From Leptolyngbya sp. FACHB-321 (GTDB lineage Bacteria > Cyanobacteriota > Cyanobacteriia > Leptolyngbyales > Leptolyngbyaceae): a stretch of DNA of 64,000 nt. The position numbers and the translations under genes were made by a program. Below the pieces are notes generated by a model. The model saw nothing but the letters and a program-made list of their open reading frames with translations, was not told the origin of the DNA and did no database searches. The stretch spans positions 1 to 64,000 of the forward strand of contig NZ_JACJPI010000041.1 in assembly GCF_014695975.1 (NCBI RefSeq). Direction: 5' to 3'. Positions 42,011 to 60,460 of this stretch are shown in pieces. How positions within the stretch are numbered: position 1 is the stretch's first letter; each line of letters starts with the position of its first letter.

Positions 42011-42170
42011 GGGCTGTTTTGGGCAAAACAGGGCAAAAACGGGAAAAATTGGGACAGGTTGGGGTGAAGCGGGAAATCAAAGGCAAAAACGGGACAAGTT
42101 GGGGCAAAACGGGACACGTTGGGACACGTTGGGATACGTTGGGACAAGGCGGGACAGGATGGGCAAAAAC
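42011..42170 (-). repeat. 10-bp phased degenerate iteron array 1 (GGG orientation on +)
   Basis: 16 consecutive decamers; 15 begin GGG and one (42081) begins AGG: gggctgtttt gggcaaaaca gggcaaaaac gggaaaaatt gggacaggtt ... gggacacgtt gggacacgtt gggatacgtt gggacaaggc gggacaggat gggcaaaaac. Confidence 0.92.
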
Positions 42171-42270
42171 ACAAACCGGGCAAGGTGAAACAGAACGCGT
42201 ATACTAGCTTCAGAGTGACTTCCCGCTTGCCCGCTGCCCTCTCTTCCATGCTTTCTCTGTCTAGCAGACC

Positions 42271-43440
42271 ATGCAGTTTGACCGCAAGCCTTTACCTGAT
42301 ATTGTCATTGAGGTGTTCCCGTTTAAGCCGGTTGCGCCCACAGTCAACGTGCCCAAACAGCGAGGTCGTCCCCCGTTACCCGTCCCAGCAGTAGACGACC
42401 CCCGGTTGCATATTGTGGAGACTTGGTTAGCCAGTGAAAGCTTAAAACCCAATAGCCGTAAAGCCTATGCAAGGGAGTTGAAACGGTTTCTGGTATGGAG
42501 TGATCGCGCCCTAGAGGAGTTTACTCAGGCAGACATAGCCCTCTACAAAGACGATCTGAAGTCGGTGAAAGCAGAAGACGGGGAAACGAGTGTAAATAGT
42601 GTCAATGTGGCACTGACTGCACTGCGGAGCTTCTTTAACTGGTACTGTGCGCAAGCTATAGAAGTGGGACAGTCCGCCCGAGTGAACCCCACGTTGGGAG
42701 TAAAGTTTGAACGCGTACCGCTACCACCACCTAAGGACGTGAGTCAGACAGCATTGGAGTGGTTAAACACTGCATTGGAGTACACACAGGAAACCCAGTC
42801 GCGCGATCGGGCAATGGTACAGGTGTTGTGTCATGGACTAAGAGCTGGTGAACTGGTGAGCCTGAATGTGGGCAGTTATGACGGGAGACGACTGCATATT
42901 GCACACACGAAGACCAACGAACCGCGCACGGTGCCGCTATGTGATGCAGGGAGATCTGCACTGAATCAATATCTGGAAGGGAGAGCTATAGACGGGGAGA
43001 CATTGACCCCAGAACGGCCGCTCATGCACTCGTTGAGTCGTAGTGAGCGGTTGAGTTACCACGGGGTTTACCAAGCAGTGAAGCGGTTGGGGATGTTGGC
43101 GGCACAATTGAGCTTAAAGGACTGGCTGAGTCAGCAGTCAGAAGAGGCAAGGCACGTGAGAGAGGGAGTGCAGGCATTGAACGCGGAGTCACTGTTGTCG
43201 CTAGCGCCTGTACTGCCTTATGGGGTGTGGGCAGTAGCGTCTGAGTTGGTGCAACTCCACCCCCACCAGTTACGGCATACGTATGCAACGGGGTTGTTCC
43301 GGCAGGGATTAGACCCCACTCATGCTCGCAGGCTGTTAGGACATAGTTCTGAACAGACCACGAGACGGTATACGCAGGCGGTAGAGGCAGAGGCGGCAGA
43401 GGCGGCCTATTATCGGTTGATTGGAGAGACGGTGGAGTAG
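42271..43440 (+). CDS. tyrosine recombinase/integrase
   Basis: SAM-like core-binding N-domain; catalytic HPHQLRHTYATGLFRQGLDPTHARRLLGHSSEQTTRRYTQ. Confidence 0.92.
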   Translation: MQFDRKPLPDIVIEVFPFKPVAPTVNVPKQRGRPPLPVPAVDDPRLHIVETWLASESLKPNSRKAYARELKRFLVWSDRALEEFTQADIALYKDDLKSVKAEDGETSVNSVNVALTALRSFFNWYCAQAIEVGQSARVNPTLGVKFERVPLPPPKDVSQTALEWLNTALEYTQETQSRDRAMVQVLCHGLRAGELVSLNVGSYDGRRLHIAHTKTNEPRTVPLCDAGRSALNQYLEGRAIDGETLTPERPLMHSLSRSERLSYHGVYQAVKRLGMLAAQLSLKDWLSQQSEEARHVREGVQALNAESLLSLAPVLPYGVWAVASELVQLHPHQLRHTYATGLFRQGLDPTHARRLLGHSSEQTTRRYTQAVEAEAAEAAYYRLIGETVE

Positions 43441-43563
43441 GGAAAGAGCAGTCTTTACTTGAACCGAGGCCGGTAAGCTGTACCTTCCGCTCTCCCCCTC
43501 TTCTCTTTCCCCACATAAGTACAGCACTTTTTAGTGTATTTGTACTAGAAAAACCTTGAAGCC

Positions 43564-44055
43564 ATGTTAATCTTACGGTCAACCCTCAATAGGGTTGCAG
43601 TCGGTCCTGCTCGTGTTGCCGCCCGTCTGGCACTGGCACTGATTCTGCCTTTAAACTATTTGTCTACTTTATCGATGCCAGCGAGAGCGCAACAAACTGT
43701 TCCAGCAGCGGTTGCAGCTTGTGCCGCTCAACCAGAAATCTGCGGACTTGTGGTAGTCGGTTTCGGAGTCTGGTATGTGTATTGGCGAGGCCGTCCACCA
43801 GAATACTGTACCTTTGCTACCTGCGAGGTCTTACGGCAGCCGTTACGGATTGATGACCCAGACCAGCCGATTGAGTCCCAAATCATTGATTATGTTTGGG
43901 GTAATAATGCCACAGAGGCGGAACAAAACTGCAAACGCCTTGCTGCACAAGCAGGGTTGCGGTACGTCAAGGTCAGACGCACGAGTCAAAAGGGCAAACG
44001 CTGGGAATGCCACGTTGACAACCATCCTGAGACTACTCCCCACCGAGGACGCTAA
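43564..44055 (+). CDS. hypothetical protein with signal/TM N-terminus
   Basis: RLALALILPLNYLSTLSMPARAQQTVPAAVAACAAQPEICGLVVVGFGVWYVYW. Confidence 0.55.
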   Translation: MLILRSTLNRVAVGPARVAARLALALILPLNYLSTLSMPARAQQTVPAAVAACAAQPEICGLVVVGFGVWYVYWRGRPPEYCTFATCEVLRQPLRIDDPDQPIESQIIDYVWGNNATEAEQNCKRLAAQAGLRYVKVRRTSQKGKRWECHVDNHPETTPHRGR

Positions 44056-44056
44056 C

Positions 44057-44566
44057 ATGCACATTTTGCAATTCACGCTTTGCTACCCGCTTGGTGAGTG
44101 CCACCCTGACGCTTTGCTCGACATGCCGCCAGACGACGTGGAGTTGAGCGGCAACTATGAGCTTTATGAGTTTCAGACAGCCGCTCAAGTACCTGCTGTA
44201 GGAAAAGGGTGGGACTTTCCTGAATCGGGTGGGCGTTGGGTAATCACTAAAGTCGAGTCGTATGCACCCACGGTTCCCAACACGATCGACGGGTTTCACA
44301 CGGTGCTTTGTACCAGAGACGGTGTGCTTTTAGACCGTAAGGACAGTGACACTGACTACCGTGTGCTGGGTCTACGGCTGGACGGTGACACAATCTATGA
44401 ACGTGAGCCGGGACTGGCTGATTGGTGGGTCAGTTCAGCCCTGTCACTACCAAAACCCTCTAACGAGCAAACTATACACCTGTTTCAACCAGTTGAGGGA
44501 CGACCCGCATGTGGCTATGATCTCGTTGCCATTGTCCAAACACAAGGATCAACCGTCACTGCTTAA
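44057..44566 (+). CDS. hypothetical protein
   Basis: Start MHILQFTLCYPLGECHPDALLDMPPDDVELSGNYELYEF directly after the preceding stop; the ORF-track start (43775) overlaps the upstream gene. Confidence 0.6.
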   Translation: MHILQFTLCYPLGECHPDALLDMPPDDVELSGNYELYEFQTAAQVPAVGKGWDFPESGGRWVITKVESYAPTVPNTIDGFHTVLCTRDGVLLDRKDSDTDYRVLGLRLDGDTIYEREPGLADWWVSSALSLPKPSNEQTIHLFQPVEGRPACGYDLVAIVQTQGSTVTA

Positions 44567-44890
44567 GGCTGTTTGAGTGCTGTGTAGTTACGTTTAGCAC
44601 CAGCACTAGACAGACAATCCAAAACAAAGCTATTCCACGAGAAAGATCGGGTCGGGTGGCAAACTCTCCCTCCCCCCTCCTAGGCAGTGAAGCAGAGCCG
44701 CAGCAAGGTAACGCTCATTCACCGCAGGACTAACAAGTTCTGCCAAAAAGTCGTGTAGCGAAGTGAACGGTGTACAACTTTTAGTGGGGTCTGCTCAACC
44801 ACAGTACCTTTGACGCCTATGCCCTGATCGCGGTCTAAACAACAGGTCTGCCAACATCGCTCATTCATACCAATTGCTTAGAGCTAAATC

Positions 44891-45040
44891 GGGAAAAATC
44901 GGGACAGTCTCGGACAAAACTGGGATTAAATGGGAAGCAATGGGCATGAACGGGCAAAATTGGGACGCTCCGGGGTAATTTGGGTCGATGCGGGGCAAAT
45001 GGGGCACTGTTGGGACGGTTTAGGCAAAACCGGGCGAATT
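44891..45040 (-). repeat. 10-bp phased degenerate iteron array 2 (GGG orientation on +)
   Basis: gggaaaaatc gggacagtct cggacaaaact gggattaaat gggaagcaat gggcatgaac gggcaaaatt gggacgctcc ggggtaattt gggtcgatgc ... Confidence 0.9.
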
Positions 45041-45328
45041 GGAAACTTTACTAACTGTCCATAGGGGGTTGGTTAATTCCTACTGCACTTGTCTAGCAAG
45101 CGTTGAGGATAGGTAAAAACATCATTGTTGAGATAGTAAGTCAGCTGACGACTCGGCTCAGACTTACCAACGCCCCTTGTGTACGAGTTGCTGGACTTTA
45201 GCCGCTAGAAAGCTGACCGATCAATCAGGGAGCTGAGGGTGCGACGCAAGCTGCTATAGAAAACCAGCGTGAGAACCCCGGTCTTTCAAGCCGGGGATGA
45301 AACGCCGCCGCAGCTTTGAAGCTGCCAG

Positions 45329-45742
45329 TTACTTGCCGTTCTGAGATTCAATGTACTGCTTAACAATGGTGGTGGAAACATTGCCCACTGAGCCAACAAA
45401 ATAGCTTGGAGTCCAGGTAGAGGGCAGCTTTTTCAGCCATTCGAACTCTAGCCGCAAGTTGTGAGAAAGCCTGCCCTTAGACCGATGGGCTACCTTTGCC
45501 GCTGAATCGTTGACCGTGACGTTGACCAATAGGTGCACATGGTCAGGTTGAACCCCCAGAGAGAGGATGCGCCAACGGTTTTCGACTGCCACAGCAAAGA
45601 TGATTTCTTGAGCACGGTCAACGATGCCTTTGACGAGTACAGGTCTGCGACGTTTGGGTACAAAAACGAAGTGAAAGTTAATCAGTGAAACCGAGTTCCC
45701 TTCGTGCCTGTACTCATGATCTTTCGCCAAAAGTTTAGCCAT
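45329..45742 (-). CDS. tnpA: IS200/IS605 HUH transposase TnpA
   Basis: SLINFHFVFVPKRRRPVLV...RILSLGVQPDHVHLLVNV (HUH = HVH)...SYFVGSVGNVSTTIVKQYIESQ. Confidence 0.9.
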   Translation of the reverse strand: MAKLLAKDHEYRHEGNSVSLINFHFVFVPKRRRPVLVKGIVDRAQEIIFAVAVENRWRILSLGVQPDHVHLLVNVTVNDSAAKVAHRSKGRLSHNLRLEFEWLKKLPSTWTPSYFVGSVGNVSTTIVKQYIESQNGK

Positions 45743-45801
45743 GCTTCACACTTTTATCTTTTGCTGGGTGCTAGTGTAACAACAGTTATGAGGTAGTACG
45801 T

Positions 45802-47079
45802 TTGTTTGGTTGTCAACCCATACTGATCGAATCAAACCCAGTCTTGGAGTTCGTTTGTAGTGAAGCAAATAAGCTCACAAACCAGGGCCTTTATTACGCT
45901 TGGCAGTGGTATTTCAAGACGGGCAAATATGTCAGTAAGTTTGACCTAAACTACCAGTACAAACCGAGCAAGCATTTTGCCGCGTTAGCAGCACAGGCAG
46001 CGCAGCAGGTATTAGGCTCAGTCTACGAAGCGTTCAAGTCCTACCGTGAGCTATTGAAGCTCTGGAGAGCGGGTGAGCTAGCCGATAAGCCCAAGTTGCC
46101 CAACTACCGGACGAAAGGTGGTTTAGCGGTTGTCTCGTACCCCAAACAGGCAATCAAGCTAGTTGATGGGCAGGTACGTTTACCGTTAGGCAATCAAATC
46201 AAGGCGTGGTTTGACTTGGATTGCTTCATGGTGCCAATGCCAAGCAACCTGAAGTTTGAGGACATTAAGGAAGTGCGGCTACTGCCACGCAACGGGTGCT
46301 TCTACGCTGAGTTTGTCTACCGTCTGCCTCAGTTCAAGGTTGAGGTTGATTTCAGTAAGGCGTTGGGGATTGATTCTGGCTTGCATAACTGGCTGACGTG
46401 TATCTCCAATATAGGCACTAGCTTTATTGTGGATGGCTTGCAGCTCAAGTCGGTGAACCGCTGGTATAACAAGCAGATTTCAACCGTGAAGGAAGGTCAG
46501 CCGCAAGGTTTCTGGTCGAAGCGCTTAGCAGGCATCACCGAAACACGCAACCGACAAATGCGCGATGCCATTAATAAAGCAGCACGATTAGTGCTTGACC
46601 ACTGCCTTGAGCATAGTATCGGTACGGTCGTGTTTGGGTGGAACAAGGGGCAAAGACAAGCAGTCAATTTGGGGCATCAGACCAACCAAAAGTTTGTGCA
46701 GATTCCCACAGCGCGACTCAAAGACCGTATCGCTCAACTGTGTGAGCAGTACGGCTTGCAGTTCGTGGAAACAGAGGAATCGTACACTTCAAAAGCTTCG
46801 TTTGTGGATGGCGATCAGCTACCTGTTTTCGGTGCAAAACCCGAAGGGTGGCAAGCTTCTGGCAAGCGAACGAAGCGCGGTTTGTACCGTACCGCAATGA
46901 ACTGGTACATCAACGCCGATTGCAACGGCGCTGCCAACATTCTGCGTAAAGTAGCGACGATGCTTGGACTTGATCTGAGCGGAGTTGGTAGGGGGTCTTT
47001 GACTGCCCCCACTCGGATGCAAGTCTGGGTGACAGCTAAAAGGAGACGTGAAGCGGCATCTCTTCAGAGTGCCGCGTAA
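45802..47079 (+). CDS. tnpB: TnpB-like RNA-guided nuclease (OrfB), zinc-ribbon-less variant
   Basis: RuvC-I KALGIDSGLHNWLTC; RuvC-III ADCNGAANILRKV; region TEESYTSKASFVDGDQLPVFG...RGLYRTAMNWYINADCNGAANI lacks CxxC pairs. Confidence 0.88.
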   Translation: MFGCQPILIESNPVLEFVCSEANKLTNQGLYYAWQWYFKTGKYVSKFDLNYQYKPSKHFAALAAQAAQQVLGSVYEAFKSYRELLKLWRAGELADKPKLPNYRTKGGLAVVSYPKQAIKLVDGQVRLPLGNQIKAWFDLDCFMVPMPSNLKFEDIKEVRLLPRNGCFYAEFVYRLPQFKVEVDFSKALGIDSGLHNWLTCISNIGTSFIVDGLQLKSVNRWYNKQISTVKEGQPQGFWSKRLAGITETRNRQMRDAINKAARLVLDHCLEHSIGTVVFGWNKGQRQAVNLGHQTNQKFVQIPTARLKDRIAQLCEQYGLQFVETEESYTSKASFVDGDQLPVFGAKPEGWQASGKRTKRGLYRTAMNWYINADCNGAANILRKVATMLGLDLSGVGRGSLTAPTRMQVWVTAKRRREAASLQSAA

Positions 47080-47359
47080 CATCCGTTTAGAATCCCCGCG
47101 CATTGATGCCGGGGAGTAGTCAATCTTGCAGAGTCAGCACGAGCCGCCGCTGACTTTTCACGTGAAAAGACGCTACGTCATTTAGGTGCAGCGATCGCCA
47201 ACGCGCTGAACTAACAGACACAAGCACCAACGCCCTACTTAAAACGCAGTTCACAGGGTCGCTTTCTGGCAAACCATAGTAGAGAGCGCGAGCTTTTGCG
47301 TGTGCAACCCACAATTCTGCAAGGCAAAGTGATCAAAAGTGCTGCCTGCGTGTATAGTT

Positions 47360-47510
47360 GTCCCAAGTCGTCCCGTTTTACCCCGGAACATCCCCAACGT
47401 AACCTTGAATGTCCCAGAGTTTCCCATTCCGTCCCAAGTGTGGCTTCAAATTCCCCAATCAAACCCAGTCTGTCCCAGATAAGCCCAAGCTTGCCCTTAA
47501 CTGTCCCGGG
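47360..47510 (+). repeat. 10-bp phased degenerate iteron array 3 (CCC orientation), candidate parC
   Basis: ttgtcccaagtcgtcccgttttaccccggaacatccccaacgt...gtcccagagtttcccattccgtcccaagtg...gtctgtcccagataagcccaagcttgcccttaactgtccc; C-runs at about 10-bp steps. Confidence 0.9.
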
Positions 47511-47547
47511 CTGAACCACAAAGCCTGTTGAATCATTAGGAGTTTCC

Positions 47548-48891
47548 ATGCCTGAACCACGTGAACCAGTCCCTGTACTACTCGCAATCGACAACGGGTT
47601 GTCAGAAACAAAAGCCTTTTGGAATGTCGCTGGTGAACCTGTCCAACTCATGCGGCTGTCACCAGAAATTATTGAAGTACAGAGCGAAAACCTCTTGGAG
47701 TCTGGGTTGCTCGGCGGTCGTCCAGAAGACAATGCCTTAATTGAAATCATAGACGGGCGGCTCTTTGCTGTTGGTAAGCAAGCACGAGACTTGCGAGGCA
47801 AAAGCCCAGTCGAAGAGACCAAATACCAAATGAGTGTGTATAAGATTCTGGCGACGGTAGGTGCAATCGCTACCAGGTTGGGTGTGACACGGCTTGAACT
47901 CACTATCGCCACCCTGCTACCGTTCAGTGAGTACCAGGACAGGAAAGAGTTTATTGAGCTGCTCAAGGAGCAACTGAGAGAGTTTAATTTTCGGAAAACA
48001 CCGATTCGGTGCAAAATCGAGAGCGTAGCTGTAAAGCCTGAAGGGGCAGGCATTTCAATTAGCTACATGCATAGGGAAGCTAACTTTAAAGATCAGAACA
48101 CCCTGGTACTTATGGTGGGACACCGTGACGCCTCTCTACTACCGTTTGAAGAAGGCAAGCCTCTTACCGGTATGGGTGACCAGTTAGGTGATCAACTCGG
48201 GTTTCTCGAACTGCAAAAACAAGTAGTGACCCGTGCCGCCTTAAACCTAAGTGCACGGAACCAGGTAAGGCTACCGGAATACTTGTTCCGCGCGAAGGCA
48301 GAACCTGAGTACATTCAGCGCATTGCTGAAATGGCTGTAACAGGAACTGAGATCAAGAAAAAAGTGGCTCGTCTCCAAGAAGCCATTACAGCGAGTCAGA
48401 AATGGTACATCAGCACTCTCACCCACTGGATCAAAGCGACACTGGGTCCCTTCCTGTCCACTGTTGATCGTGTGATCATTTCAGGAGGCACTGCGCTTTA
48501 CCTACAAGAAGACCTTGTTGAGTTCTTTAGCGCCTTGCCCAGATTGCATGACCCAGACAGCATTATTTGGGGTGGCTTGGAGTCTCAAGCAGAGATCGAA
48601 GCATGGTTAGGCTCCGAAATTGACACGGAGCTAGCTGTGAGACTGGCGGATGTCTACGGTTTGTATGTTGATACAATGGCCCGCTTCCCCAATTTAGGGC
48701 CTGGGGAAACGGAGTCAGTAACCGAGTTAGACGAAAGTGAAGAAAGCCTCGCTGTAGCAACTACAAGCGAAGAGTTGACTGACACCGAACCCACGAACGG
48801 CAAAGCTAAAGCTGGGTCAAGAAGACAAGCTAAGGACGTCAAACTCCCAGTAGTTCCAAAGCAAAGACAAGGCGCTGCTAAACGGAGTTAA
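47548..48891 (+). CDS. parM: ParM/actin-like plasmid segregation ATPase
   Basis: LLAIDNGLSETKAFWNV (phosphate-1 motif), LVLMVGHRDASLLPFEEGKPL, DRVIISGGTALYLQEDLVEFF (adenosine motif), upstream of small ParR-like ORF. Confidence 0.75.
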   Translation: MPEPREPVPVLLAIDNGLSETKAFWNVAGEPVQLMRLSPEIIEVQSENLLESGLLGGRPEDNALIEIIDGRLFAVGKQARDLRGKSPVEETKYQMSVYKILATVGAIATRLGVTRLELTIATLLPFSEYQDRKEFIELLKEQLREFNFRKTPIRCKIESVAVKPEGAGISISYMHREANFKDQNTLVLMVGHRDASLLPFEEGKPLTGMGDQLGDQLGFLELQKQVVTRAALNLSARNQVRLPEYLFRAKAEPEYIQRIAEMAVTGTEIKKKVARLQEAITASQKWYISTLTHWIKATLGPFLSTVDRVIISGGTALYLQEDLVEFFSALPRLHDPDSIIWGGLESQAEIEAWLGSEIDTELAVRLADVYGLYVDTMARFPNLGPGETESVTELDESEESLAVATTSEELTDTEPTNGKAKAGSRRQAKDVKLPVVPKQRQGAAKRS

Positions 48892-48892
48892 T

Positions 48893-49384
48893 ATGCCGAA
48901 CGAAAACGGGCAAGCACCCAAGGACAACCGACTCAGGTTAAGACTGCAGTCCGGCACCATGCTGGAGCAGACAGTCAACAGACTTAAAGATGACGGCAGA
49001 GACAAGGAAAGGCAGCGTCTTGAAGCAGCGATCTGTGCCTTCTGGGCACCTTATGCCTACCAGGACTCAGAGACCTTACAGGAAGTAGCACTGCAATCAA
49101 TCCTCGATCTCAGTGACCAAATTCTAGAGATTGCCCTACTCGCCAACCTCCCGATCGACCACCTCGATCCAATGCGGTTGAAGGCGAATGCTGTTAGTCT
49201 CAAACAACTGCTTAAAAATTCGGCGGCAGCGACAAGCAGTACCGAAAGCAAGGTCACAATCGGCACTCAGGCAAAACCACCCCAGCCGACCAGTGAGCCA
49301 ACTAACGTAAAACAAAATAGCAGTAGAGCCACAAAACCAAGTGTGACCGCAAAACCAGAAAGAGAGAGCCTCTTTGACGACTAA
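48893..49384 (+). CDS. small ParR-like (RHH-like?) adaptor candidate
   Basis: Starts 1 nt after the parM-like stop; NRLRLRLQSGTMLEQTVNRLKDDGRDKERQRLEAAICAFWAPYA; basic/low-complexity tail. Assignment mainly from operon position. Confidence 0.5.
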   Translation: MPNENGQAPKDNRLRLRLQSGTMLEQTVNRLKDDGRDKERQRLEAAICAFWAPYAYQDSETLQEVALQSILDLSDQILEIALLANLPIDHLDPMRLKANAVSLKQLLKNSAAATSSTESKVTIGTQAKPPQPTSEPTNVKQNSSRATKPSVTAKPERESLFDD

Positions 49385-49415
49385 GGTAAGCAAACCTCCT
49401 CCCCTTTTCTCACAC

Positions 49416-49446
49416 ACTCACCCTCCTGACAGGGTGAGTTTTTTAT
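49416..49446 (+). terminator. hairpin terminator
   Basis: actcaccct-cctgac-agggtgagttttttt. Confidence 0.55.
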
Positions 49447-49455
49447 GAGCAACCG

Positions 49456-50832
49456 ATGTCTTACCAACCCCTACACCAGAAATACCGACCACAAACATTA
49501 AAGCAACTCGTCGGGCAGGAGGTAATTGCCACCATGCTGGCTAACGCGCTCCGCCAGCAGCGCATTGCTCCGGCTTATTTATTCACAGGCGCACGCGGTA
49601 CCGGCAAAACGTCGAGTGCTCGTATTTTGGCCAAGTCACTAAACTGCTTCAGCGCAAATGTGCCGACACCAGAACCCTGTGGCACCTGCTCAGCCTGTAT
49701 CAGTATTACTAAAGGAGGTGCACTTGACGTTATTGAGATTGACGCGGCTAGTCATACCGGTGTCGACAATATACGTGAGCTCATTGAGCAGTCCCAATTC
49801 CAACCTATGCAGTACCGTTACAAGGTTTATTGCATAGACGAAACGCACATGCTAAGCAACGCGGCATCGAATGCGTTGCTGAAAACACTTGAAGAGCCAC
49901 CCGAGCGCGTGGTGTTCGTGCTAGCAACTACAGACCCACAGAAATTGTTGCAGACGCTTATTTCGCGCTGTCAACGATTTGACTTCCAGCGGCTTCCGAC
50001 TAAAGCAATCGCGCAGCACTTAAAACACATTGCGAACGCAGAAAGAATCGCCATCACAGACAGTGCTCTGATGCTCGTTGCTCAAATCGCTCAAGGCGGT
50101 TTACGAGACGCCGAAACGTTGTTAGACCAACTCAGTTTGCTCAGTGAAGAAATCACACCCCAACACGTGTGGCAGGTAAGCGGTGGTCTCAGTGAACCAG
50201 ACCTGCTGGAAGTCTTAAGCGCTATTCTGCAGCCAGAGCTTAGCCCACTTAAACCGTTACGACGGCTCTGCGACCAAGGACGGACACCCGTTGCCATTGT
50301 CGAAGGACTGCTACGCTTCCTCACTGACCTGCAACAGTTGTGTACAACCGGGTCAAAAGAACGGTTGTACGCTAGTCTGCCAACTACCGTGGCGCAGCTC
50401 AGTATCTTAGCTAAAAGTGTGAGTGTCCCACAGCTGCAGCTACTCAGTGTGCACCTGTCCAGTGCGATCGGACTCATACGGCTAACCAGTCAGCCAGTCG
50501 TCTGGTTAGAGCGTTGCATCCTTGACCTGGCAGTTAATGAACAAGTCACAGTCACAGCAGCAAAGAGCAGCAACCGTTTGTCTGACCTGGATGACCTGTG
50601 GCAACGTGTTGTAGAACACACACCGCCTAACCAGCACCGGCTCTTACAACCCATCAAGCTGGTGGAGCTACAGGAGCAAGTAGCGACGCTAGACGCTCCT
50701 ACACCTGTTGCTTCAGCAACCGTAAAGGCGTACAGCAAAAACATTGAGAACGCCTTCAAAGCCTTGGGTTACTCTGTGGCACTTCGAGTGCATACACAGG
50801 GCACAACCAGGGCTGTAAACAGCCATAAATAA
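49456..50832 (+). CDS. dnaX: DNA polymerase III gamma/tau subunit
   Basis: MSYQPLHQKYRPQTLKQLVGQEVIATMLANALRQQRIAPAYLFTGARGTGKTSSARILAKSLNC...CGTCSAC...EIDAASHTGVDNIRELIEQ. Confidence 0.94.
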   Translation: MSYQPLHQKYRPQTLKQLVGQEVIATMLANALRQQRIAPAYLFTGARGTGKTSSARILAKSLNCFSANVPTPEPCGTCSACISITKGGALDVIEIDAASHTGVDNIRELIEQSQFQPMQYRYKVYCIDETHMLSNAASNALLKTLEEPPERVVFVLATTDPQKLLQTLISRCQRFDFQRLPTKAIAQHLKHIANAERIAITDSALMLVAQIAQGGLRDAETLLDQLSLLSEEITPQHVWQVSGGLSEPDLLEVLSAILQPELSPLKPLRRLCDQGRTPVAIVEGLLRFLTDLQQLCTTGSKERLYASLPTTVAQLSILAKSVSVPQLQLLSVHLSSAIGLIRLTSQPVVWLERCILDLAVNEQVTVTAAKSSNRLSDLDDLWQRVVEHTPPNQHRLLQPIKLVELQEQVATLDAPTPVASATVKAYSKNIENAFKALGYSVALRVHTQGTTRAVNSHK

Positions 50833-50902
50833 GCAAGCTTCCTCCTTTTTCAACGTTGCTGCCCCTCTCTCCTGACAGTGGGCAAATTTTCAGCCCAACA
50901 CC

Positions 50903-52708
50903 ATGCCGCCACAAAATGAAGCGAAACGGTCAGACGTAGTGTACGTAGACAGTGCAGCAGCGTTGCATCTCGCCGTCCATAAATTACGCCAAAGACCATT
51001 GTTTGAACCTAGGGCTGTCGACACAGAGACTACAGGTGCCAGACCATATTTTGACAGGCTCAAAGTTGTGCAAATCGCAGTCAGAGGTCTTCCCATTTAC
51101 GTCCTTCAAATCGAAAGAATCCCTAAAAGCGACTGGGCACCGCTACGGGAATATTTAGCAGAATCACGTCTAAATGTCCTCCAAAACGCCAAGTTTGATC
51201 TGAAAATGCTGTCTGCTGAAGACTTGCCTTTAAACGGCAGCATCAAGGACACTTGCCTCCGCTCGAAACTGCTGCATCTAGGGGATTCTGTCTACAACCA
51301 CGACCTCGGATCAATCGTCTATGAGCACCTTAAGGTAAAGTTGGACAAAGATGAACAGAAAAAGTTTGTCGGTGATGAAAGCCGAGCACCCTTAACGACT
51401 GAGCAAATTACTTATTGCGCCGCAGACGTTGAGTTCCTTGAAGCACTAGTTGAGATTATTACAGCGAAGCTCGAACGAAAGGATCAGTTTGAAGGAAGCA
51501 AAATTGTTGCCCGTGCTCAGCGAGAAGAGGGCTTTTTGCCGCTGCTAGCTGCACTAGAACTGAGGGGCTTCTCTGTCAATGAAGACGCACTCACAGAGCT
51601 AGAACAGGACGTAAAGCTCAGGCTTGAAACAATCGAAAAGGTGTTAGTTGGTCTTCTGAGACCCAACTTAAAGCAGTTGAAACTCAATTTCGGCAAACCT
51701 GTAGCGTTTATTCCCACAAAATTCACCGAGCAGGAATTACAAACAGCCTTTCAGCTTGAAGCTGGCACGGAAGCAGAGCTACTCAAAGGACTGGTAAAAA
51801 TGCCGCAGATTGCGTTAGCGCTGGAGCACCGAGTCTTGCTCAAACAGCTGACACTGTGCCAACAAACTGTGGCAGGTGTCAATCCAGTCACAGGGAGATT
51901 ACACCCTCAACATAATCAGGTCGAAAAAATGAGTGGGGTTATGAGTGGTTCACGGACAAGAGTGGAACCACTGGAAAATTTGGCTCAGAGCTATCGTAAA
52001 GTGCCGCTTTGTCTACTCCAAGTCAACCCGGGCCAAAAACTCCTTAGAGTTAGTTTCCCTGAACTCGAACTACGCTTGCTTGCGTTTTACAGTCAGGAGG
52101 CGCAACTACTAGAAGATTTTGCAAAGGGAGTGTCGCCCACCCGGAAACTAATGCAAGCACTAGCAGACGCAAACGTGAAATTAACGCCCTATGAGAGGAA
52201 GCGTGTTGCGGAGGCTTTCTGGCACGGACTTGGCATTTTAAATATCAAACACTTTTACCTCCGTCAGTGGCTTTACGCGGAACGAGGGCTAATCTGCTCT
52301 CCTTCTGTAACGAAAACGGTTCAAAACTTATTGGCAAGGCTCTACCCAGGACTGAGCCGTTTCCACGCAGAGATTAACAAAAGACGTTACCGAGACCGAT
52401 GCACCTTATTGGGCGGACTGCGGTGGTGGAAGGGAGCGTCTGATCGAGACGTGCGTCATTTCCTAGTGTGGGGTTCCTCGGACGAGGTCTTAAAAACGGC
52501 CGTTGGCACGGTAAAAGACTGTCCCGAAGGAACCGACCGCATTGTCTTTCTCAACCAGACAAGTTTTTACATTTCCAGCCCTGCAGACCAAAGTAAGGCT
52601 TTAGCAGAGCAACTAGAACTTCAACTAAGCGCTCAATTGACACAAACGTATCCACAAATTGCGATCGCAGTGCAAGCCGAAATATTTCAAAATTGCAACC
52701 CGGCGTAA
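50903..52708 (+). CDS. 3'-5' exonuclease (DEDDy) fused to a DNA-polymerase-A-like domain lacking polymerase catalytic residues
   Basis: Exo I AVDTETTGARPYFDRLKVVQIAV, Exo II VLQNAKFDLKML, Exo III YCAADVEFLEALV; polA-like region RVSFPELELRLLAFYSQ / ERKRVAEAFWHGLGI / VFLNQTSFYI. Confidence 0.8.
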   Translation: MPPQNEAKRSDVVYVDSAAALHLAVHKLRQRPLFEPRAVDTETTGARPYFDRLKVVQIAVRGLPIYVLQIERIPKSDWAPLREYLAESRLNVLQNAKFDLKMLSAEDLPLNGSIKDTCLRSKLLHLGDSVYNHDLGSIVYEHLKVKLDKDEQKKFVGDESRAPLTTEQITYCAADVEFLEALVEIITAKLERKDQFEGSKIVARAQREEGFLPLLAALELRGFSVNEDALTELEQDVKLRLETIEKVLVGLLRPNLKQLKLNFGKPVAFIPTKFTEQELQTAFQLEAGTEAELLKGLVKMPQIALALEHRVLLKQLTLCQQTVAGVNPVTGRLHPQHNQVEKMSGVMSGSRTRVEPLENLAQSYRKVPLCLLQVNPGQKLLRVSFPELELRLLAFYSQEAQLLEDFAKGVSPTRKLMQALADANVKLTPYERKRVAEAFWHGLGILNIKHFYLRQWLYAERGLICSPSVTKTVQNLLARLYPGLSRFHAEINKRRYRDRCTLLGGLRWWKGASDRDVRHFLVWGSSDEVLKTAVGTVKDCPEGTDRIVFLNQTSFYISSPADQSKALAEQLELQLSAQLTQTYPQIAIAVQAEIFQNCNPA

Positions 52709-52804
52709 AAAATTTGTACCTCTCTCTTCCCCCCTCTCTTCGTAAACACAAGGTAGAAGGTTAACCGCAGCTTTCAAGGTAAAGCCAAAGTCATATCAGA
52801 CCGA

Positions 52805-52950
52805 CCCGCTTTGTCCCATATCAGACCTGAAATATCCCGTGTTGTCCCAAGTCGTCCCATTTTCTCCCATTCTGTCCCAAATTGACCCAGTAAGTCCTAA
52901 AGTTGCCTTAAATGCCCCAAAGCTGACCTTACCTGACCCATTCTGTCCCA
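52805..52950 (+). repeat. 10-bp phased degenerate iteron array 4 (CCC orientation)
   Basis: gacccgctttgtcccatatcagacctgaaatatcccgtgttgtcccaagtcgtcccattttctcccattctgtcccaaattgacccag...ttctgtccca. Confidence 0.92.
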
Positions 52951-52968
52951 AATTCGTCAAATCTTCTT

Positions 52969-54072
52969 ATGAAACCAATTGGACATGCCCTGAGTGTACA
53001 GCTACTACAAAACGCTTTAGACCAAGAGCGAATCCACAATGCTTACCTGTTCGTTGGCAGCCAAGGCGTTGGCAAACGGACGCTAGCCCGCTGGCTTGCC
53101 GATCAGTTGCTGTATCTGCCCGGTCAACGACGCTTACTACTGGACGGACACCCAGACTTCTATACCCTGGAACCGCTTGACACTGAAACTGGCAAACGCG
53201 CTGTTATCAAAGTAGACGCGGTGCAGTCCCTCATTCGCTACTTACGTCAACAGCCGTTGGTCAGCAGTCGTAGTGTCATATTGATTGACCAAGCGGACAC
53301 GCTGACAGTCAGTGCGGCCAATGCGTTACTAAAAACCTTGGAAGAGCCGCGTAAAGCGGTGTTGCTATTGACTACAGACCAACTAGACGCAGTGTCCACA
53401 ACAATCCGTTCGCGTTGCCAAACGTTCTACCTGCAGGCGCTTTCAGAGTCCGAGTGTCAGGCTGTATTAGCGCCCTATGTCACACCAGCACCGGCTGAGT
53501 TAGTAGCACTGGCACCCGGTCAACCAGGGCAAATCTTGCAGCATTGCCGAATGGTTAATGCACTGGCACCGATAAGCAGTGCTTTGGCACAAGGCGTGCG
53601 GTCACCCCATGAGTGTTTAGGACTAGCGCAAAGCCTCAAAGCACTGACGCAAACCCAACAGATGTGGCTCATACAGTGGTGGCAGCGCTCACTGTTTGAC
53701 CAGCCGCACCTGTTGGAATGCTTCGATCACGCGATCGCCCAGCTCCAGCAGTCCGTACAACCAGAGCTAGCTTGGGACGTGCTCTTGCTCCAACTGAACC
53801 GCAATGGGGTTTGGGCGGTGACCTTACCAGAGCCAGTAAGCCTGCACGCACCCATGCCAGTCACTGCCGAAGAAGCAGTAGAGCGGACCAAGCTAGCAAA
53901 AAGCCGTCAGGCTCAAAAGTCCAACGGCTCAAAGAAAACAAAAAGCATAGCAACAGTGATACCAGTTGACGTAGAACAGACAACAGCCACCTCAGACGTA
54001 CAAACACCACAAACACCAGCCCTAAAACAGCTCACTCTATTCCCAAAGCGCACTGTTACTGGTAGCTCATAA
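52969..54072 (+). CDS. holB: DNA polymerase III delta' subunit (HolB-like)
   Basis: MKPIGHALSVQLLQNALDQERIHNAYLFVGSQGVGKRTLARWLADQLL...IDQADTLTVSAANALLKTLEEPRKAVLLLTTDQLDAVSTTIRSRCQTF. Confidence 0.9.
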   Translation: MKPIGHALSVQLLQNALDQERIHNAYLFVGSQGVGKRTLARWLADQLLYLPGQRRLLLDGHPDFYTLEPLDTETGKRAVIKVDAVQSLIRYLRQQPLVSSRSVILIDQADTLTVSAANALLKTLEEPRKAVLLLTTDQLDAVSTTIRSRCQTFYLQALSESECQAVLAPYVTPAPAELVALAPGQPGQILQHCRMVNALAPISSALAQGVRSPHECLGLAQSLKALTQTQQMWLIQWWQRSLFDQPHLLECFDHAIAQLQQSVQPELAWDVLLLQLNRNGVWAVTLPEPVSLHAPMPVTAEEAVERTKLAKSRQAQKSNGSKKTKSIATVIPVDVEQTTATSDVQTPQTPALKQLTLFPKRTVTGSS

Positions 54073-54694: not shown

Positions 54695-54919
54695 AAGAAC
54701 AGCCTCCTAATATTGATAAAACAGTACAAAATTACTAAGCCAAACAAGTTTACCTCAGCTTTCTAAGCGTGTCGTCGAACCGCAAAAAATTAGTCAGCAA
54801 AGCAAAAAGTTGCTCGCTGTAACGCCTTTCCTTCTCTTTCCTGCCCTTTCTCCCTTGCTTGTATCCGTTGTGAGGGCTGACGCCCCAGTGACACAACGTT
54901 CAGGAACAAACTTATCGCT

Positions 54920-56038
54920 ATGCAAAAACGTACTCCCACTCCCTCTGATTGCGACCCCCAAGCGTTCGCGTTGGCCCAAGACATTGTGTTGAATCCCACG
55001 ATGGGAAAGACCAGCGAGGAACTAGAAACAGCTCAGGCTCTCTACAAGCTGTACAACAGTCTGAGATATGGTTTTAAGACCCTGCTGACGAACTTTATCA
55101 ATGATCGTCAGTACATGGCGGTACGCGATCAGCTGCCCCGTCGCTCCGACGAAAACTTGCCTTCAGCAATGGCTGAGTACAAGGAAGCTCGCAGACGTAT
55201 GATCTATGCGCCTGTCAAAGCCGCAGTCGAGGCATATATGGAGCAAAACTTGCAAGCGGCAGGCACAGAGGCTGAGTTTCTCAAGAACTTTGGTGCCAAT
55301 AGCGAACAAACGATCCGGGCTCTCATTGAGCGCCTGCTCGACCTTGCAGTGGAACGGTACTGGGTAGAAGTGCAGCTCAACCCTGACACTGAAAAGCGGC
55401 AGCCTGAAATCATTAAAGTCAAGCTAGAGGACGGTCGTCCGGTTGAGGTTAGCGAACAGGAGCAGCGAAAGCACATGCGACAGTGTTTGTTACGACTGAA
55501 TCAACAAGAACTCGAAGCGAGACAGCGCCAATTCGGCAATCGCTCGAATACTCATAAAGAGAGCCACATTGACACAGTCATGGCGAGAGGTGGACCCGTC
55601 GCTCAACCTGGTGCGTCTAACTTCGTCGTTACAGAGCAATCAGGTGTGGGGCAGTACTGTGTGCTGCTGCTGGACTTTAATACGAGTGAGTGGGAGTGCT
55701 TGGCGCGCCTTCGCAACCAACAAAGCAGCTTTACCTACGCTGACGAACAACGGAAAGCAGCACCTCAAGGAGTGCTCATTCGAGCCTTTCGGGACGCACA
55801 AAACGAGTTCCCCTTAGGGACGGTTGGAGCGTTGCAAGACATAGATTGCAAGTGGCGCAAGCCGCTCCAAATCCCGCACCTTCAAGCACGCGAAGGACAA
55901 GCGCCTGTGCTGGTGTCATTCATGGACACCAAACGGATTGAGGGCACCTGGTACATGAACGCTCTAATTGAAATGCTGGAGGAGTACAAAGTGCAGTTTC
56001 ACCGCAAATCTGAGGCTACCGTCACTATTGCGGAGTAG
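54920..56038 (+). CDS. hypothetical plasmid protein
   Basis: 372-aa ORF, no recognised family. Confidence 0.65.
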   Translation: MQKRTPTPSDCDPQAFALAQDIVLNPTMGKTSEELETAQALYKLYNSLRYGFKTLLTNFINDRQYMAVRDQLPRRSDENLPSAMAEYKEARRRMIYAPVKAAVEAYMEQNLQAAGTEAEFLKNFGANSEQTIRALIERLLDLAVERYWVEVQLNPDTEKRQPEIIKVKLEDGRPVEVSEQEQRKHMRQCLLRLNQQELEARQRQFGNRSNTHKESHIDTVMARGGPVAQPGASNFVVTEQSGVGQYCVLLLDFNTSEWECLARLRNQQSSFTYADEQRKAAPQGVLIRAFRDAQNEFPLGTVGALQDIDCKWRKPLQIPHLQAREGQAPVLVSFMDTKRIEGTWYMNALIEMLEEYKVQFHRKSEATVTIAE

Positions 56039-56106
56039 CCAACTCCGCAATTACACAAACGGTCACAACCAGCCCAGTTGCAAACTTCTGCGTTCTCGCT
56101 GCTAGT

Positions 56107-56147
56107 AAAAACCAACTCTTCTAGTCAAGCTAGAGGGGTTGGTTTTT
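56107..56147 (+). terminator. hairpin terminator
   Basis: aaaaaccaactcttctag-tcaag-ctagaggggttggttttt. Confidence 0.6.
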
Positions 56148-56331
56148 CGCCGCCGCCGCCGCCGCACTCTTTCCTTCTCGCGCCTGCTCACTTCTGCAAG
56201 TACGGAACAAACACAACCAAACCACAGCCCATGAACAGCCTCAACCAGCATTCACTCATTGAAATCGTGAACCAAAGCGGTGCCACCTCGACACACTCAA
56301 AACCTGCCTGGACAACCAGCGAACACCGTCA

Positions 56332-57840
56332 ATGCAAACTCCCGAAACCGCTTTCAAAGACATGCCTGAATTTCCTGAGCGGACACAACGACCAGCAGCA
56401 ACCGCGTCCCAGTGGGCACACTATGCACCAGTCAGAAAAGCAGGTTATGAGTGTTCTACTCAAGGTGATCGCCGCTTCAGTGCCCTCTATGCAAAGCTGA
56501 GCGACGGACGGACGATTGAAGAGGCGTGTCAACTGGACGTAAAGGGGTACCGAGTGCAAGGCAATGACTGGCGCTTAGGGAAAGGCAAACTGCTGCTGAA
56601 ACCAATGCCTATAGAAGCATTGCATAGCCAGTACAAAAGTCTCTGGCAACGGTGGGCAACCGAGAACCCTGTGCTCATGGATACATTGACAACTGCAGCA
56701 GAAGGCAAAGTGCTGACTGACAAGTTTGCCCGTACACCCATTTCACAGGCACAGGTGCTGGCAGAACTGCTGTTCGTTCAGCAGTTAGACGCAGCTGAAG
56801 TCAGCGACCAAGCAACGGCTTCACCTGATCGTATCACCGCTCTAGAGCCATACCAAGTGTTTATGTTCGTCGGCAACACTCAGGGACGGCACGGTAAAGG
56901 AGCTGCCCTCCAAGCCATGAAGTTCGGTGCAGAATACGGCAACCCATGTGGACGGCAGGGTCAAGCTTACGCGATTGTGACCAAAGATTTGACGAAGCCC
57001 AAAGAGCAGCAGTTACGCTCAGTCCCCTTAAACGAGATCGAGCAACAGATCAGTGTGTTCCTGGAACATGCGATCGCACACCCTAAGCATGAGTTTCTGG
57101 TCACTCGCTTCGGCTGCGAACTGGCAGGCTACTCAGAGACCGAAATAGGCGGACTGTGGGTTGGGAAAGCAGTGCCCACAAATGTGAAACTGCCCCAAGC
57201 CTTTCTTAACGTCGTGCAGGCAGCAGCTCTAGAGCCAGCGATCGCACCAAAAACACCAACCACAAAAGGAGTAGAGACAGTGGTACCTAAACCAACAACA
57301 CTCGTTGTCATTTCAGGTGGACAAACCGGAGCGGACATAGGTGGACTGAAGGCAGCCCATGCATTAGGGCTTCAGACAGGCGGCGTTGCCCCTTACGGCT
57401 GGTTAGTCGAGTGCTGTGCCCGATTTCCCAATGGCACAAATCCCCGTTTGGCTGATTATGGCTTGGTTGAAGGTCCGTGCGGTAATAGTGCCGGTCACAC
57501 GTACATACTCCGCACTGAACTCAATGTAAAGCAATCAGACGGCACCCTAGTTCTGGGCAGCATTGACCCTAAACAGGACAAAGGCACTTTTCGCACTGTA
57601 GAGCTGGCTGACAAGCATAGGAAACCCTGCCTGCACCTTAGTACCGCCAACTTGTTCAAGCACCCTAACGAGCCCGTACAACGGATTAAAGACTGGGTTT
57701 TAGATGAGGGCATTCAAACGCTAAACGTCGCTGGCAATCGCGAATCCAAGTGCCCTGGATTAGAAGACAGAGTGGAGACCGTGCTGAAAGTTGCACTGGC
57801 AGAAATCGTAAGAGTAAGGTCAGAGCTTGCAATGAATTAA
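56332..57840 (+). CDS. multidomain protein: middle A1S_2505-like region plus C-terminal putative molybdenum-carrier (SLOG-type) domain
   Basis: YQVFMFVGNTQGRHGKGAALQAMKFGAEYGNPCGRQGQAYAIVTKDL...FLVTRFGCELAGYSETEIGGLW; LVVISGGQTGADIGGLKAAHALGLQTGGVAPYGW...SDGTLVLGSIDPKQDKGT. Confidence 0.75.
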   Translation: MQTPETAFKDMPEFPERTQRPAATASQWAHYAPVRKAGYECSTQGDRRFSALYAKLSDGRTIEEACQLDVKGYRVQGNDWRLGKGKLLLKPMPIEALHSQYKSLWQRWATENPVLMDTLTTAAEGKVLTDKFARTPISQAQVLAELLFVQQLDAAEVSDQATASPDRITALEPYQVFMFVGNTQGRHGKGAALQAMKFGAEYGNPCGRQGQAYAIVTKDLTKPKEQQLRSVPLNEIEQQISVFLEHAIAHPKHEFLVTRFGCELAGYSETEIGGLWVGKAVPTNVKLPQAFLNVVQAAALEPAIAPKTPTTKGVETVVPKPTTLVVISGGQTGADIGGLKAAHALGLQTGGVAPYGWLVECCARFPNGTNPRLADYGLVEGPCGNSAGHTYILRTELNVKQSDGTLVLGSIDPKQDKGTFRTVELADKHRKPCLHLSTANLFKHPNEPVQRIKDWVLDEGIQTLNVAGNRESKCPGLEDRVETVLKVALAEIVRVRSELAMN

Positions 57841-57900
57841 ACAATGAATGGAGACAACATGGCGCCCTTCAATTAAGTCAGTCAAGCCATTCAGTCTTTT

Positions 57901-58260
57901 TGTGACACAGAAATCTTCAGACATGCGATCGACCCAGAAGACTTCGACACCCCAGACGCAATCGGTGTTGTGGAGGGCGGTTGTCTCATGGTTGCCTGCG
58001 CCCTACAAGACAGTCTTGACGCTGGCATGGTTTGCCTTGTGATCAGTACTGATTTAGAAGAACTAGACGACTTCCCAGTTTTCCGCCACGCAGTTGTGAA
58101 GCTTGAAAGCGAAGGCGAAACCCCTTACCTTGACGGCTTTGGTCTGCATACAGAAGCCGAGTTCAGAGCCAAGTGTGTCCTTCCAAACGAGCAAAACAAC
58201 TTCCAAATCGACGTTGAACCGCTTACCCCCGAAAGTCTAGACCTTGCCGTCAGCAACTAG
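57901..58260 (+). pseudogene. hypothetical protein in a frame interrupted upstream by TAA and downstream by TAG/TGA
   Basis: CDTEIFRHAIDPEDFDTPDAIGVVEGGCLMVACALQDSLDAGMVCLVISTDLEELDDFPVFRHAVVKLE...; the same frame continues to 58887. Confidence 0.45.
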
Positions 58261-58386
58261 GGCGCTTACTTCCACAAAGGGACGGTTGCAGTGCTGACAG
58301 AGCTGCGTTGAGAGGGACTGAAAGCCGAAGCAGCGCAACTGCAAGCAGTTTTCAGTGAAGTACAGTCGCCGAAGCCAGCACGTTAC

Positions 58387-58887
58387 TTGATAGACGCTGA
58401 CTCGGAATGCTGCCCACAGTCAGATTCTACAGACATCCAAACACAGACGTGTACTTTGACCCAGAGAGCCATTAAAGAAGGGCAGAAGCGAGGACACGAG
58501 CGCATTGAAATTATTGTCGCGTCGCTGAATGACTACCCAGACAACCTGAAGTGTTTACAGCCTTTAGTAGCAGCGGCTGAGGCTGGAGTAAGGAAAGAAC
58601 AGGTGAGTAGTGAAATCGAGGGTAAAGCCCCGTTTCAAACTGAAGTTTATGAAAGCCCAGACGCAACGTTAGACCTGCTGAACCTCAAAGGCAACTCTGA
58701 TAATCGACTCATTCTGATCAGCAACGGAAAAGGGGTAGGGACTCAACAAATGGTGCACCATGCTGAGAGCTTGGGAGTGAAGGTCATTGGGTACAACCCA
58801 GAGACAAAGAAGTATATTGGTGCGCCCTCACTAGCAGTACCTACGCCTACGAAGTCGGCTAAGGTCGCTAAAGACTCCGCACGTTAA
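58387..58887 (+). CDS. hypothetical protein
   Basis: 166-aa ORF, RLILISNGKGVGTQQMVHHAESLGVKVIGYNPE. Confidence 0.5.
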   Translation: MIDADSECCPQSDSTDIQTQTCTLTQRAIKEGQKRGHERIEIIVASLNDYPDNLKCLQPLVAAAEAGVRKEQVSSEIEGKAPFQTEVYESPDATLDLLNLKGNSDNRLILISNGKGVGTQQMVHHAESLGVKVIGYNPETKKYIGAPSLAVPTPTKSAKVAKDSAR

Positions 58888-58952
58888 GCCTTAACCTCAA
58901 CTCCTCCCCTCACTTTGCTCATGAGGCAGGCAGAATCTCTCAAAACACTGCC

Positions 58953-59540
58953 ATGCCTGCACTCACCCTTAGAAACTGCAACACAGACATACGGCTGGTA
59001 CAAGCACTGGAGACGGCTAAGAAAACGTTAGCCGAACTCATTTACACACCCGGTCTTGCTAATGCCGTACTCGAAGCCAACGGTATGGCGGCGAGGCAAA
59101 TTCTTGAGGTGACGCCTGACCTGGAAGGCACTACCGTCAACATTGCGTTCTACGCCTACGACGACAGCCGTCACTGCAAGACTGTTCCTTGTGAGGCGTT
59201 CTTAGAACCCTTCCGACTGCGACGCGCCTTGCGTAGCGGTGCCTACAAGCTAGCTTCCATTAATCCACAGCAGGCAGACCAACTCACGGCGATCGCTAGG
59301 TGGTTGCCGCTTGCTCCTGAAGCAACCATTACAGCGGTTTACGAGAACAAGCATCGACCGGCACACTTAGTTGTCTGTGAACCAACAGCGGACGGACAGA
59401 CGCATTACCGCTGTACATGCCCTGACGCTCAAGCACAATTAGCGGTGCTGCCAACCCACCCAGCACTCTGGAAGGCTATGGGTCAACAACCGCTCTGCAA
59501 GCACCGACTCCGGCACGAGCGGCAGCAAACGCAAAGGTGA
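58953..59540 (+). CDS. hypothetical protein
   Basis: 195-aa ORF with CTCPDAQ...CKHRLRHE (SWIM-like CxC...CxH pattern). Confidence 0.55.
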   Translation: MPALTLRNCNTDIRLVQALETAKKTLAELIYTPGLANAVLEANGMAARQILEVTPDLEGTTVNIAFYAYDDSRHCKTVPCEAFLEPFRLRRALRSGAYKLASINPQQADQLTAIARWLPLAPEATITAVYENKHRPAHLVVCEPTADGQTHYRCTCPDAQAQLAVLPTHPALWKAMGQQPLCKHRLRHERQQTQR

Positions 59541-59615
59541 GGAGGAACGCTCTCTTCTTCCTCCTTCGCCCCTCCTCGCTTTGGCGCAGCACGTAAACGC
59601 TCGCCCAAAAGTCTC

Positions 59616-60272
59616 ATGCCAAAACAGAAAACAGACAAACCAGGCAAAGTCTCAGAAACAACCACAGACATGACAGCACCTCTAGCAGCCCTGACAGCCG
59701 TGAGCAACGATTCTAAACCAGTGTCACTTTATGACGCTGAAACAGCCATGGTGCTACTGGAAGACGCCTTAGCACAAGCAGCAGAGGACAACGCTAGCGT
59801 TACAGAAGAGCAGTTAGAAACGGCTGCTAACGCCTTTTTGGAAGCCACAAATGCTGCCAAAGACGCTGTTGAACGCTATTGCTGGCTGATCTTCAATCGG
59901 CTGGCTCGTAGTGACGAACGCAAAGCCCAGGCGAAAGTCTGGGAGTCAAAGGCTAAAGACCTGAAGACGATCGCCCAACAGGACGAGTCCCTGGCAGTAC
60001 GGCTGAAGCAAAAGCTTTTAGCCTTCCTTGATCGACGCGAAATCGCAAAGCTGGAAACCACAACGTTCAAGCTCAGTGCCCGTAACAACGGTGGCAAGCA
60101 GCCACTGGCTGTTGACGAGGACTACCCGATTCAGGACATCGCGCAATTCTACCCCAACTTGCTGAGGTTAGAAGTCGATAAAGACGCAGTCAGAGAGTTC
60201 TTGGAGAACGGTGGCGAACTCCCGTTTGCTCGCCTCGAAGAACGGGGACGCAGCTTAGTCATCAAGCCGTAA
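59616..60272 (+). CDS. siphovirus Gp157-like protein
   Basis: Coiled-coil N-part plus LDRREIAKLETTTFKLSARNNGGKQPLAVDEDYPI..AQFYPNLLRLEVDKDAVREFLENGGELPFARLEERGRSLVIKP, typical Gp157 C-terminal layout. Confidence 0.75.
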   Translation: MPKQKTDKPGKVSETTTDMTAPLAALTAVSNDSKPVSLYDAETAMVLLEDALAQAAEDNASVTEEQLETAANAFLEATNAAKDAVERYCWLIFNRLARSDERKAQAKVWESKAKDLKTIAQQDESLAVRLKQKLLAFLDRREIAKLETTTFKLSARNNGGKQPLAVDEDYPIQDIAQFYPNLLRLEVDKDAVREFLENGGELPFARLEERGRSLVIKP

Positions 60273-60311
60273 AGCTGGTTTCCTTAAAGGTCGAAAGGGC
60301 AGTTGAGCAAA

Positions 60312-60460
60312 AACTGCCCACAAAGGACCCAAAGTGTCCTGTTTTGCACCAGCTTTGACCCAAAAAAGCCCGAATTGTCCTAGTTCAACCCATGAAAGAC
60401 CAGATTGGGACAGTTTAGACCCAACGTGGCTAAAAGCAGCCCAATCAAGCCCAATTGCCT
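60312..60460 (+). repeat. 10-bp phased degenerate iteron array 5 (CCC orientation)
   Basis: aaactgcccacaaaggacccaaagtgtcctgttttgcaccagctttgacccaaaaaagcccgaattgtcctagttcaacccatg...gtttagacccaacgtggctaaaagcagcccaatcaagcccaattgcc. Confidence 0.85.

Follow-up and report, generated by a model that had tools for sequence, protein, structure and literature searches.

Putative parC-type repeat arrays at and away from an actin-like partition gene pair on a plasmid-like contig of Leptolyngbya sp. FACHB-321

Introduction

What role could five intergenic arrays of short, degenerate units play when the units recur about every 10 bp and the arrays are spread over 18 kb? This question is raised by a 64,000-bp stretch of Leptolyngbya sp. 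FACHB-321 DNA (RefSeq assembly GCF_014695975.1, contig NZ_JACJPI010000041.1, positions 1 to 64,000), which we call the window and which is part of the 97,073-bp contig C36 in an assembly of 6.7 Mb and 91 contigs. A first-pass annotation, made from the sequence alone, had described the arrays as a centromere-like or operator set with a ParM-like gene next to one of them. Type II (actin-driven, ParMRC) centromeres are described as a single repeat cluster beside parM. They consist of direct repeats of 10–20 bp upstream of this gene, with repeats of 11 bp in R1 and 10 bp in pB171 (PMC9426499). Several such arrays on one plasmid would pose the question of how ParM filaments handle multiple capping complexes per molecule, and their dispersal raises the question whether the adaptor ParR is also a plasmid-wide regulator. 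We report here that the arrays are probably sites of the parC type, bound by the ParR of a type II partition system, with the dispersed copies as additional sites.

Results

All five arrays exist in the window and belong to one motif family. Direct reading of the sequence revealed C- or G-run units in about 10-bp phase in each of the five stretches, and the places given in the first-pass annotation were confirmed by this reading, by profile searches, and by held-out scores (Table 1). For a motif-free test, CCC/GGG in strict 10-bp phase were counted and compared with 200 local Markov shuffles of the 64 kb. The periodicity proposed earlier exceeded the shuffle maximum of 6 in arrays 1 (score 14), 2 (score 11), and 4 (score 7), whereas arrays 3 and 5, in which 11-bp steps or degenerate cores are present, were above shuffled sequence only in a slip-tolerant profile. 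This cyclic 10-state profile, which allows slips of ±1 bp and was trained on the arrays themselves, found all five arrays (132, 113, 112, 92, and 68 bits; ≤24 in 20 shuffled windows). Leave-one-out profiles, trained without the array being scored, gave held-out scores of 118, 104, 87, 105, and 61 for arrays 1–5 and of 72 for a sixth array on contig C2; none of the 500 shuffles run for each reached any array's score (null maximum 29). Apart from these held-out scores, profile-based counts come from models built from the same arrays.

Phasing is held more strictly than unit sequence across the arrays, in agreement with the earlier description. The core-to-core step is 10 bp, occasionally 11; array 2 has a single 9-bp step, and array 5 shows a 1+9 slip at its edge. 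Identity between array pairs amounts to only about 0.47–0.59 without a single best register. The arrays are therefore not recent block copies. On the C-rich strand, the consensus is approximately TGtCCCAatt, with most of the information in CCC. As the units have in common only this core and a few flanking bases, they are not the near-identical repeats of CRISPR or variable number tandem repeat loci, both of which had already been dismissed. Secondary profile matches beside the arrays (e.g., at 41842 and 53110) belonged to the tails of the high-scoring array paths and were not kept as separate arrays.

The arrays had been thought to be confined to 18 kb of one contig, which is not the case, given the sixth array on C2. 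It is flanked by a VirD4-like coupling-protein gene (L021:7542-9425) and an 897-aa open reading frame (ORF; L021:9648-12341), for which no family match was obtained. A sequence model of 50 positions (five units), built from the six arrays and applied to all 6.7 Mb, gave 15 matches at E ≤ 10, all of them within the six arrays, which are thus confined to two contigs (C36 and C2) out of 91. The remainder of C36 contained no additional array, and 280 kb from other contigs likewise showed none. When C36 and C2 were scanned for chains without any preset motif, only the C2 array and three window arrays were recovered. A pattern of three TGTCCC units returned only a few unrelated short repeats from 291 genomes, and in a search of the order a repeated CCCN7 pattern matched C-rich tracts of low complexity in relatives. 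On related plasmids, ParM occurs in combination with clamp-loader/polymerase genes and a VirD4 gene; going by this gene content, C36 and C2 may be pieces of one conjugative plasmid.

The gene next to array 3 had been called ParM-like, and a ParM/ParR pair indeed follows 30 bp downstream of this array. The locus thereby combines a ParM-type actin-like ATPase gene, a small downstream adaptor gene, and direct repeats upstream of parM, as type II systems do. Weak matches of the ParM-like protein in the PDB were CorM (9rmi, E = 9e-4) and Cbc-ParM (7x54, E = 5e-3), and a match to NCBIfam FcmB (E = 7e-7) was far below the cut-off. The gene was the only homologue found in a search of its own genome. 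Homologues annotated as ParM/StbA occur in 108 plasmids; of those listed, nearly all are cyanobacterial. AAA_31 (ParA-type) genes, with 25 matches in the genome, are absent from C36 and C2.

The small protein encoded after parM comprises a conserved N-terminal domain, a disordered linker, and an acidic C-terminal motif (ESLFDD). It matched no Pfam or other known domain and no known ParR by sequence. The gene pair is conserved in relatives: parM is almost always followed by a gene for a small protein whose N-terminal domain can be aligned and whose C-terminus is acidic, e.g., EDLFDS. On the basis of synteny and an alignment at 20% identity, we take 48893-49384 as the putative parR. Homology was set by position and by alignment of parM neighbours because tblastn with the ParR-like protein gave nothing in plasmids and one weak match in the order. 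Related loci were collected with a ParM alignment, as a single ParM query was unsuccessful; matches were obtained in genomes and none in viral contigs. AlphaFold models of the ParR-like protein (mean pLDDT 70 and 77) predict an extended N-terminal stretch followed by helices and a disordered tail.

Phased arrays also lie upstream of homologous parM genes. We determined the longest chain of one 5-mer at 10–11-bp spacing in the 350 bp before parM for 71 parM loci. Chains of ≥5 were present in 33 of these loci, compared to 15 of 1420 stretches of the same length taken from other parts of these loci. The test at other periods was positive in only 12 of 284 cases. At least seven core motif types were distinguished upstream of parM, and they are lineage-specific: ACCT in Leptolyngbya, GTTCCATT in another member of the family that includes Leptolyngbya, TTCCTGA in Crinalium, TTCCC in Allocoleopsis, TTGGCGT and TGGATC in Nostocales, and AAGTCGTGA in Phormidium/Halomicronema. 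Phasing thus appears to be conserved while the core diverges, as would be expected if every ParR had its own motif. The arrangement of arms varies as well, with two inverted arms about 50 bp apart upstream of parM in Crinalium pCRI9333.03 and pCRI9333.04, and two direct arms on either side of a short AT-rich stretch in Nostocales. Because their position and build upstream of parM match those of direct-repeat centromeres, we regard these arrays as type II centromere-like. No description of cyanobacterial parM/parR arrays of 10–11 bp with lineage-changing cores was found in the open-access literature searched. Two results were discarded: a de novo expectation-maximization search for periodic arrays before parM was overfitted, with shuffles scoring equally high, and was replaced by the k-mer chain test; and periodicity matches about 4.2–4.8 kb upstream of parM in the Tolypothrix campylonemoides locus (L129) were false, arising from runs of N.

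Arrays 2 and 3 are separated by an IS200/IS605-type element in which tnpA and tnpB are divergently oriented. A 201-bp fragment of this element, 91% identical, is present on contig C33 (L195), and no full second copy that could fix its ends was found. On the plus strand, array 2 is G-rich and array 3 is C-rich, which is the polarity of the two Crinalium arms. Arrays 2 and 3 may plausibly be the left and right inverted arms of one parC split by the IS element. Without the element, the arms would lie about 460 bp apart, i.e., wider than in Crinalium. If there is a single split parC, the five arrays may therefore be four sites.

The dispersal of the arrays is their unusual part. We detected no second array away from parM on the 325-kb plasmid of Leptolyngbya NIES-3755, on Crinalium pCRI9333.03, in 36 kb of pCRI9333.04, on pMIC7113.01, or on pANACY.02. 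A pattern search of five Nostocales genomes located the array at parM only in four; Anabaena sp. UHCC 0187 has an extra one. This orphan is a two-arm TTGGCGT array (L194:3451-3659; C26:7450-7658 in genome G043) on a different contig from the array at parM. It is located after a replication-protein-like gene and before a DUF4351-type-looking gene; its contig also carries another, different parM/parR pair at a distance of about 3–4 kb. Dispersal is consequently rare, perhaps not unique. With regard to syntenic positions in related plasmids, whose lack of arrays would have spoken against the earlier proposal, the parM-proximal position is conserved, but the dispersed arrays are absent from the plasmids scanned. 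For this reason, comparative support is direct for array 3 (and 2) only, and the others are connected to it by the shared motif.

Arrays 1, 4, 5, and C2 carry the same motif and end 14–100 bp ahead of the next start codon where measured. Array 1 neighbours a tyrosine recombinase, array 4 a delta'-like clamp-loader gene, array 5 an acid-tailed protein, and the C2 array a large protein beside the coupling protein. Array 1, the most regular one with all core spacings at 10 bp, ends 100 bp before the ATG of the tyrosine recombinase gene (42271-43440, plus strand). Array 4 sits between a PolA-like gene (50903-52708) and the delta'-like gene (52969-54072). Array 5, which holds one inverted unit (~60401-60418), ends about 76 bp before the ATG at 60533 of the acid-tailed 382-aa protein. 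In a scan for consensus promoters and terminators, matches were no more numerous than in shuffles.

Table 1. Coordinates of the arrays, the partition gene pair, and the IS element (window positions unless a contig is named)
Feature	Position	Strand	Description and basis
Array 1	42008..42170	- (C-rich strand minus)	~16 units; profile, held-out score
Array 2	44883..45042	- (C-rich strand minus)	~16 units; left of IS element; profile, held-out score
Array 3	47358..47518	+ (C-rich strand plus)	~16 units; 30 bp before parM ATG; putative parC (right arm)
Array 4	52797..52954	+ (C-rich strand plus)	~15-16 units; profile, held-out score
Array 5	60311..60456	+	~14 degenerate units; profile, held-out score
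Sixth array	contig C2 (96,074 bp) ~22462-22580 (L021:9463-9581)		12 units
parM-like gene	47548..48891	+	447 aa, actin-like; Pfam ALP_N E=6e-10, above cut-off
parR-like gene	48893..49384	+	163 aa; starts 2 bp after parM; synteny and alignment with relatives
IS200/IS605-type element	45266..47123		ends inferred from terminal hairpins ~45274-45305, ~47094-47112
TnpA gene	45329-45742	-	IS gene, divergent
TnpB gene	45802-47079	+	IS gene, divergent

The window further contains a plasmid-borne replication set (49456-54072 and 59616-60272), encoding a DnaX-like clamp loader, a PolA-like protein with a 3'-5' exonuclease domain, the delta'-like protein, and siphovirus Gp157. Similar sets occur together with ParM on pMIC7113.01 and pANACY.02. 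A 502-aa ORF (56332-57840) has a C-terminal circularly permuted YpsA (SLOG) domain, and its N-terminal parts match two PHROGs of unknown function.

Discussion

The parC-type character of the arrays is supported by the homologous loci, whereas the centromere or operator role that the first-pass annotation had assigned to the distant arrays goes beyond them and is suggested by the common motif. In the mechanism we propose, each 10-bp unit, one helical turn from the next, would be contacted by one unit of the putative ParR. ParR would polymerise on a single face of the DNA, forming a complex that would cap growing ParM filaments and thereby couple parC to them. Array 3, and probably array 2, beside parM would form the principal parC. 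Arrays 1, 4, 5, and C2 would be further ParR sites before recombination, replication, and conjugation genes, serving as extra centromere copies and/or as operators that link the adjacent genes to the ParR level.

Several observations weigh against or limit the assignment of the arrays to ParR. A ribbon-helix-helix fold is a defining feature of known ParRs, and structure searches of the PDB with the ParR models were uninformative, matching no ribbon-helix-helix protein. About half of the homologous loci lack an array above background in the simple chain test, and the relatives that do have arrays are not all independent, many of them being close Nostocaceae. None of the related plasmids that were scanned entirely or almost entirely has a counterpart of the dispersed arrays. 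Finally, C2 and C36 may belong to one replicon, but their ends do not overlap.

The arrays away from parM might instead be operators of a different plasmid-encoded regulator; array 3 would then have the same motif because parMR is in its regulon, and the partition site would be elsewhere. The arrays are intergenic and lie upstream of recombination, partition, replication, and (on C2) conjugation genes, and the centromere binder of pSM19035 also regulates promoters (PMC9499535). From array 1 to array 5, however, all genes except tnpA and one ORF are on the plus strand, so that any intergenic stretch is upstream of something. Moreover, the phased arrays of other lineages, which have different motifs, are found at parM and are not accompanied by a dispersed set; array evolution therefore tracks parMR, and we consider a separate regulator improbable. 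Replication iterons or other origin-related elements would suit a neighbourhood with plasmid-borne clamp-loader, PolA-like, and delta'-like genes. This explanation is very improbable in our view, as no array lies upstream of a recognised Rep gene among the window proteins scanned, homologous arrays are located at parM, and the Anabaena orphan is the only array beside a rep-like gene.

Repeated GGGN7, which is in phase with the helix, matches the usual pattern of a G-quadruplex. This could mean that the arrays need no dedicated binder and exert their effect by DNA or RNA structure, be it a G-quadruplex/i-motif or curvature caused by phased G tracts. The cores of relatives (TTGGCGT, ACCT, TTCCTGA, and TGGATC) lack GGG runs and yet retain the phasing, and array 1 has a different polarity from arrays 3–5 with respect to the gene downstream, which speaks against a role at the transcript level; a purely structural role is slightly more improbable still. 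Least probable of all are functionless by-products of tandem duplication (selfish or neutral repeats). Although the units are simple and degenerate, nearly every step keeps the 10–11-bp spacing at about half identity between arrays, the arrays are restricted to two of 91 contigs, and their position at parM is conserved across lineages.

Within the ParR-binding interpretation, a further step would be that six dispersed parC arrays form a multi-site centromere and operator network, in which the ParR level coordinates partition with recombination, replication, and conjugation. By analogy, such a network would correspond to the omega/parS regulon of pSM19035, but with an actin-type system. We consider both this network and its analogy possible but doubtful. 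Irrespective of this, the lineage-varied cores offer ready ParR/parC pairs for work on specificity and incompatibility.

Among known systems, the ParMRC loci of R1, pB171, pSK41, and C. perfringens pCW3 share with our locus an actin-like ParM gene, a small adaptor gene, and short direct repeats upstream. In contrast to these, each array here has about 12–16 degenerate units, copies extend over 18 kb and onto a second contig, and neither sequence nor fold matched the ParR-like protein to known ParR. The delta/omega/parS system of pSM19035 comprises six parS sites of 7–10 heptads at several promoters, and its arrays double as operators (PMC9499535). It offers the nearest parallel to arrays with both functions. 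This type I system with a ribbon-helix-helix centromere binder is similar in having several arrays of short non-palindromic repeats upstream of several genes, but it uses a ParA-type ATPase, whereas our locus has an actin-like NTPase, no AAA_31 gene on C36 or C2, and an operator role that is only putative. There is also precedent for an action of partition proteins at sites close to conjugation genes: ParB/ParR of NAH7 are reported to affect conjugation (PMC12421886), and a report on R1 describes effects of ParMR on conjugation (PMC4949242). Like these, our system has a putative partition-type site near a conjugation gene, here only as an array beside a VirD4-type gene, known from sequence. 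A cyanobacterial system for comparison is FcmB/FcmC (CorM in the PDB), in which FcmC is annotated as ParR yet has no recognised domain (PMC12645912). Our pair belongs to the same cyanobacterial actin-like branch, with weak FcmB and CorM matches and a domainless ParR-like partner. Unlike FcmBC, which is chromosomal and acts in cell shape in filamentous cyanobacteria, it is located on a plasmid-like contig together with parC-like arrays.

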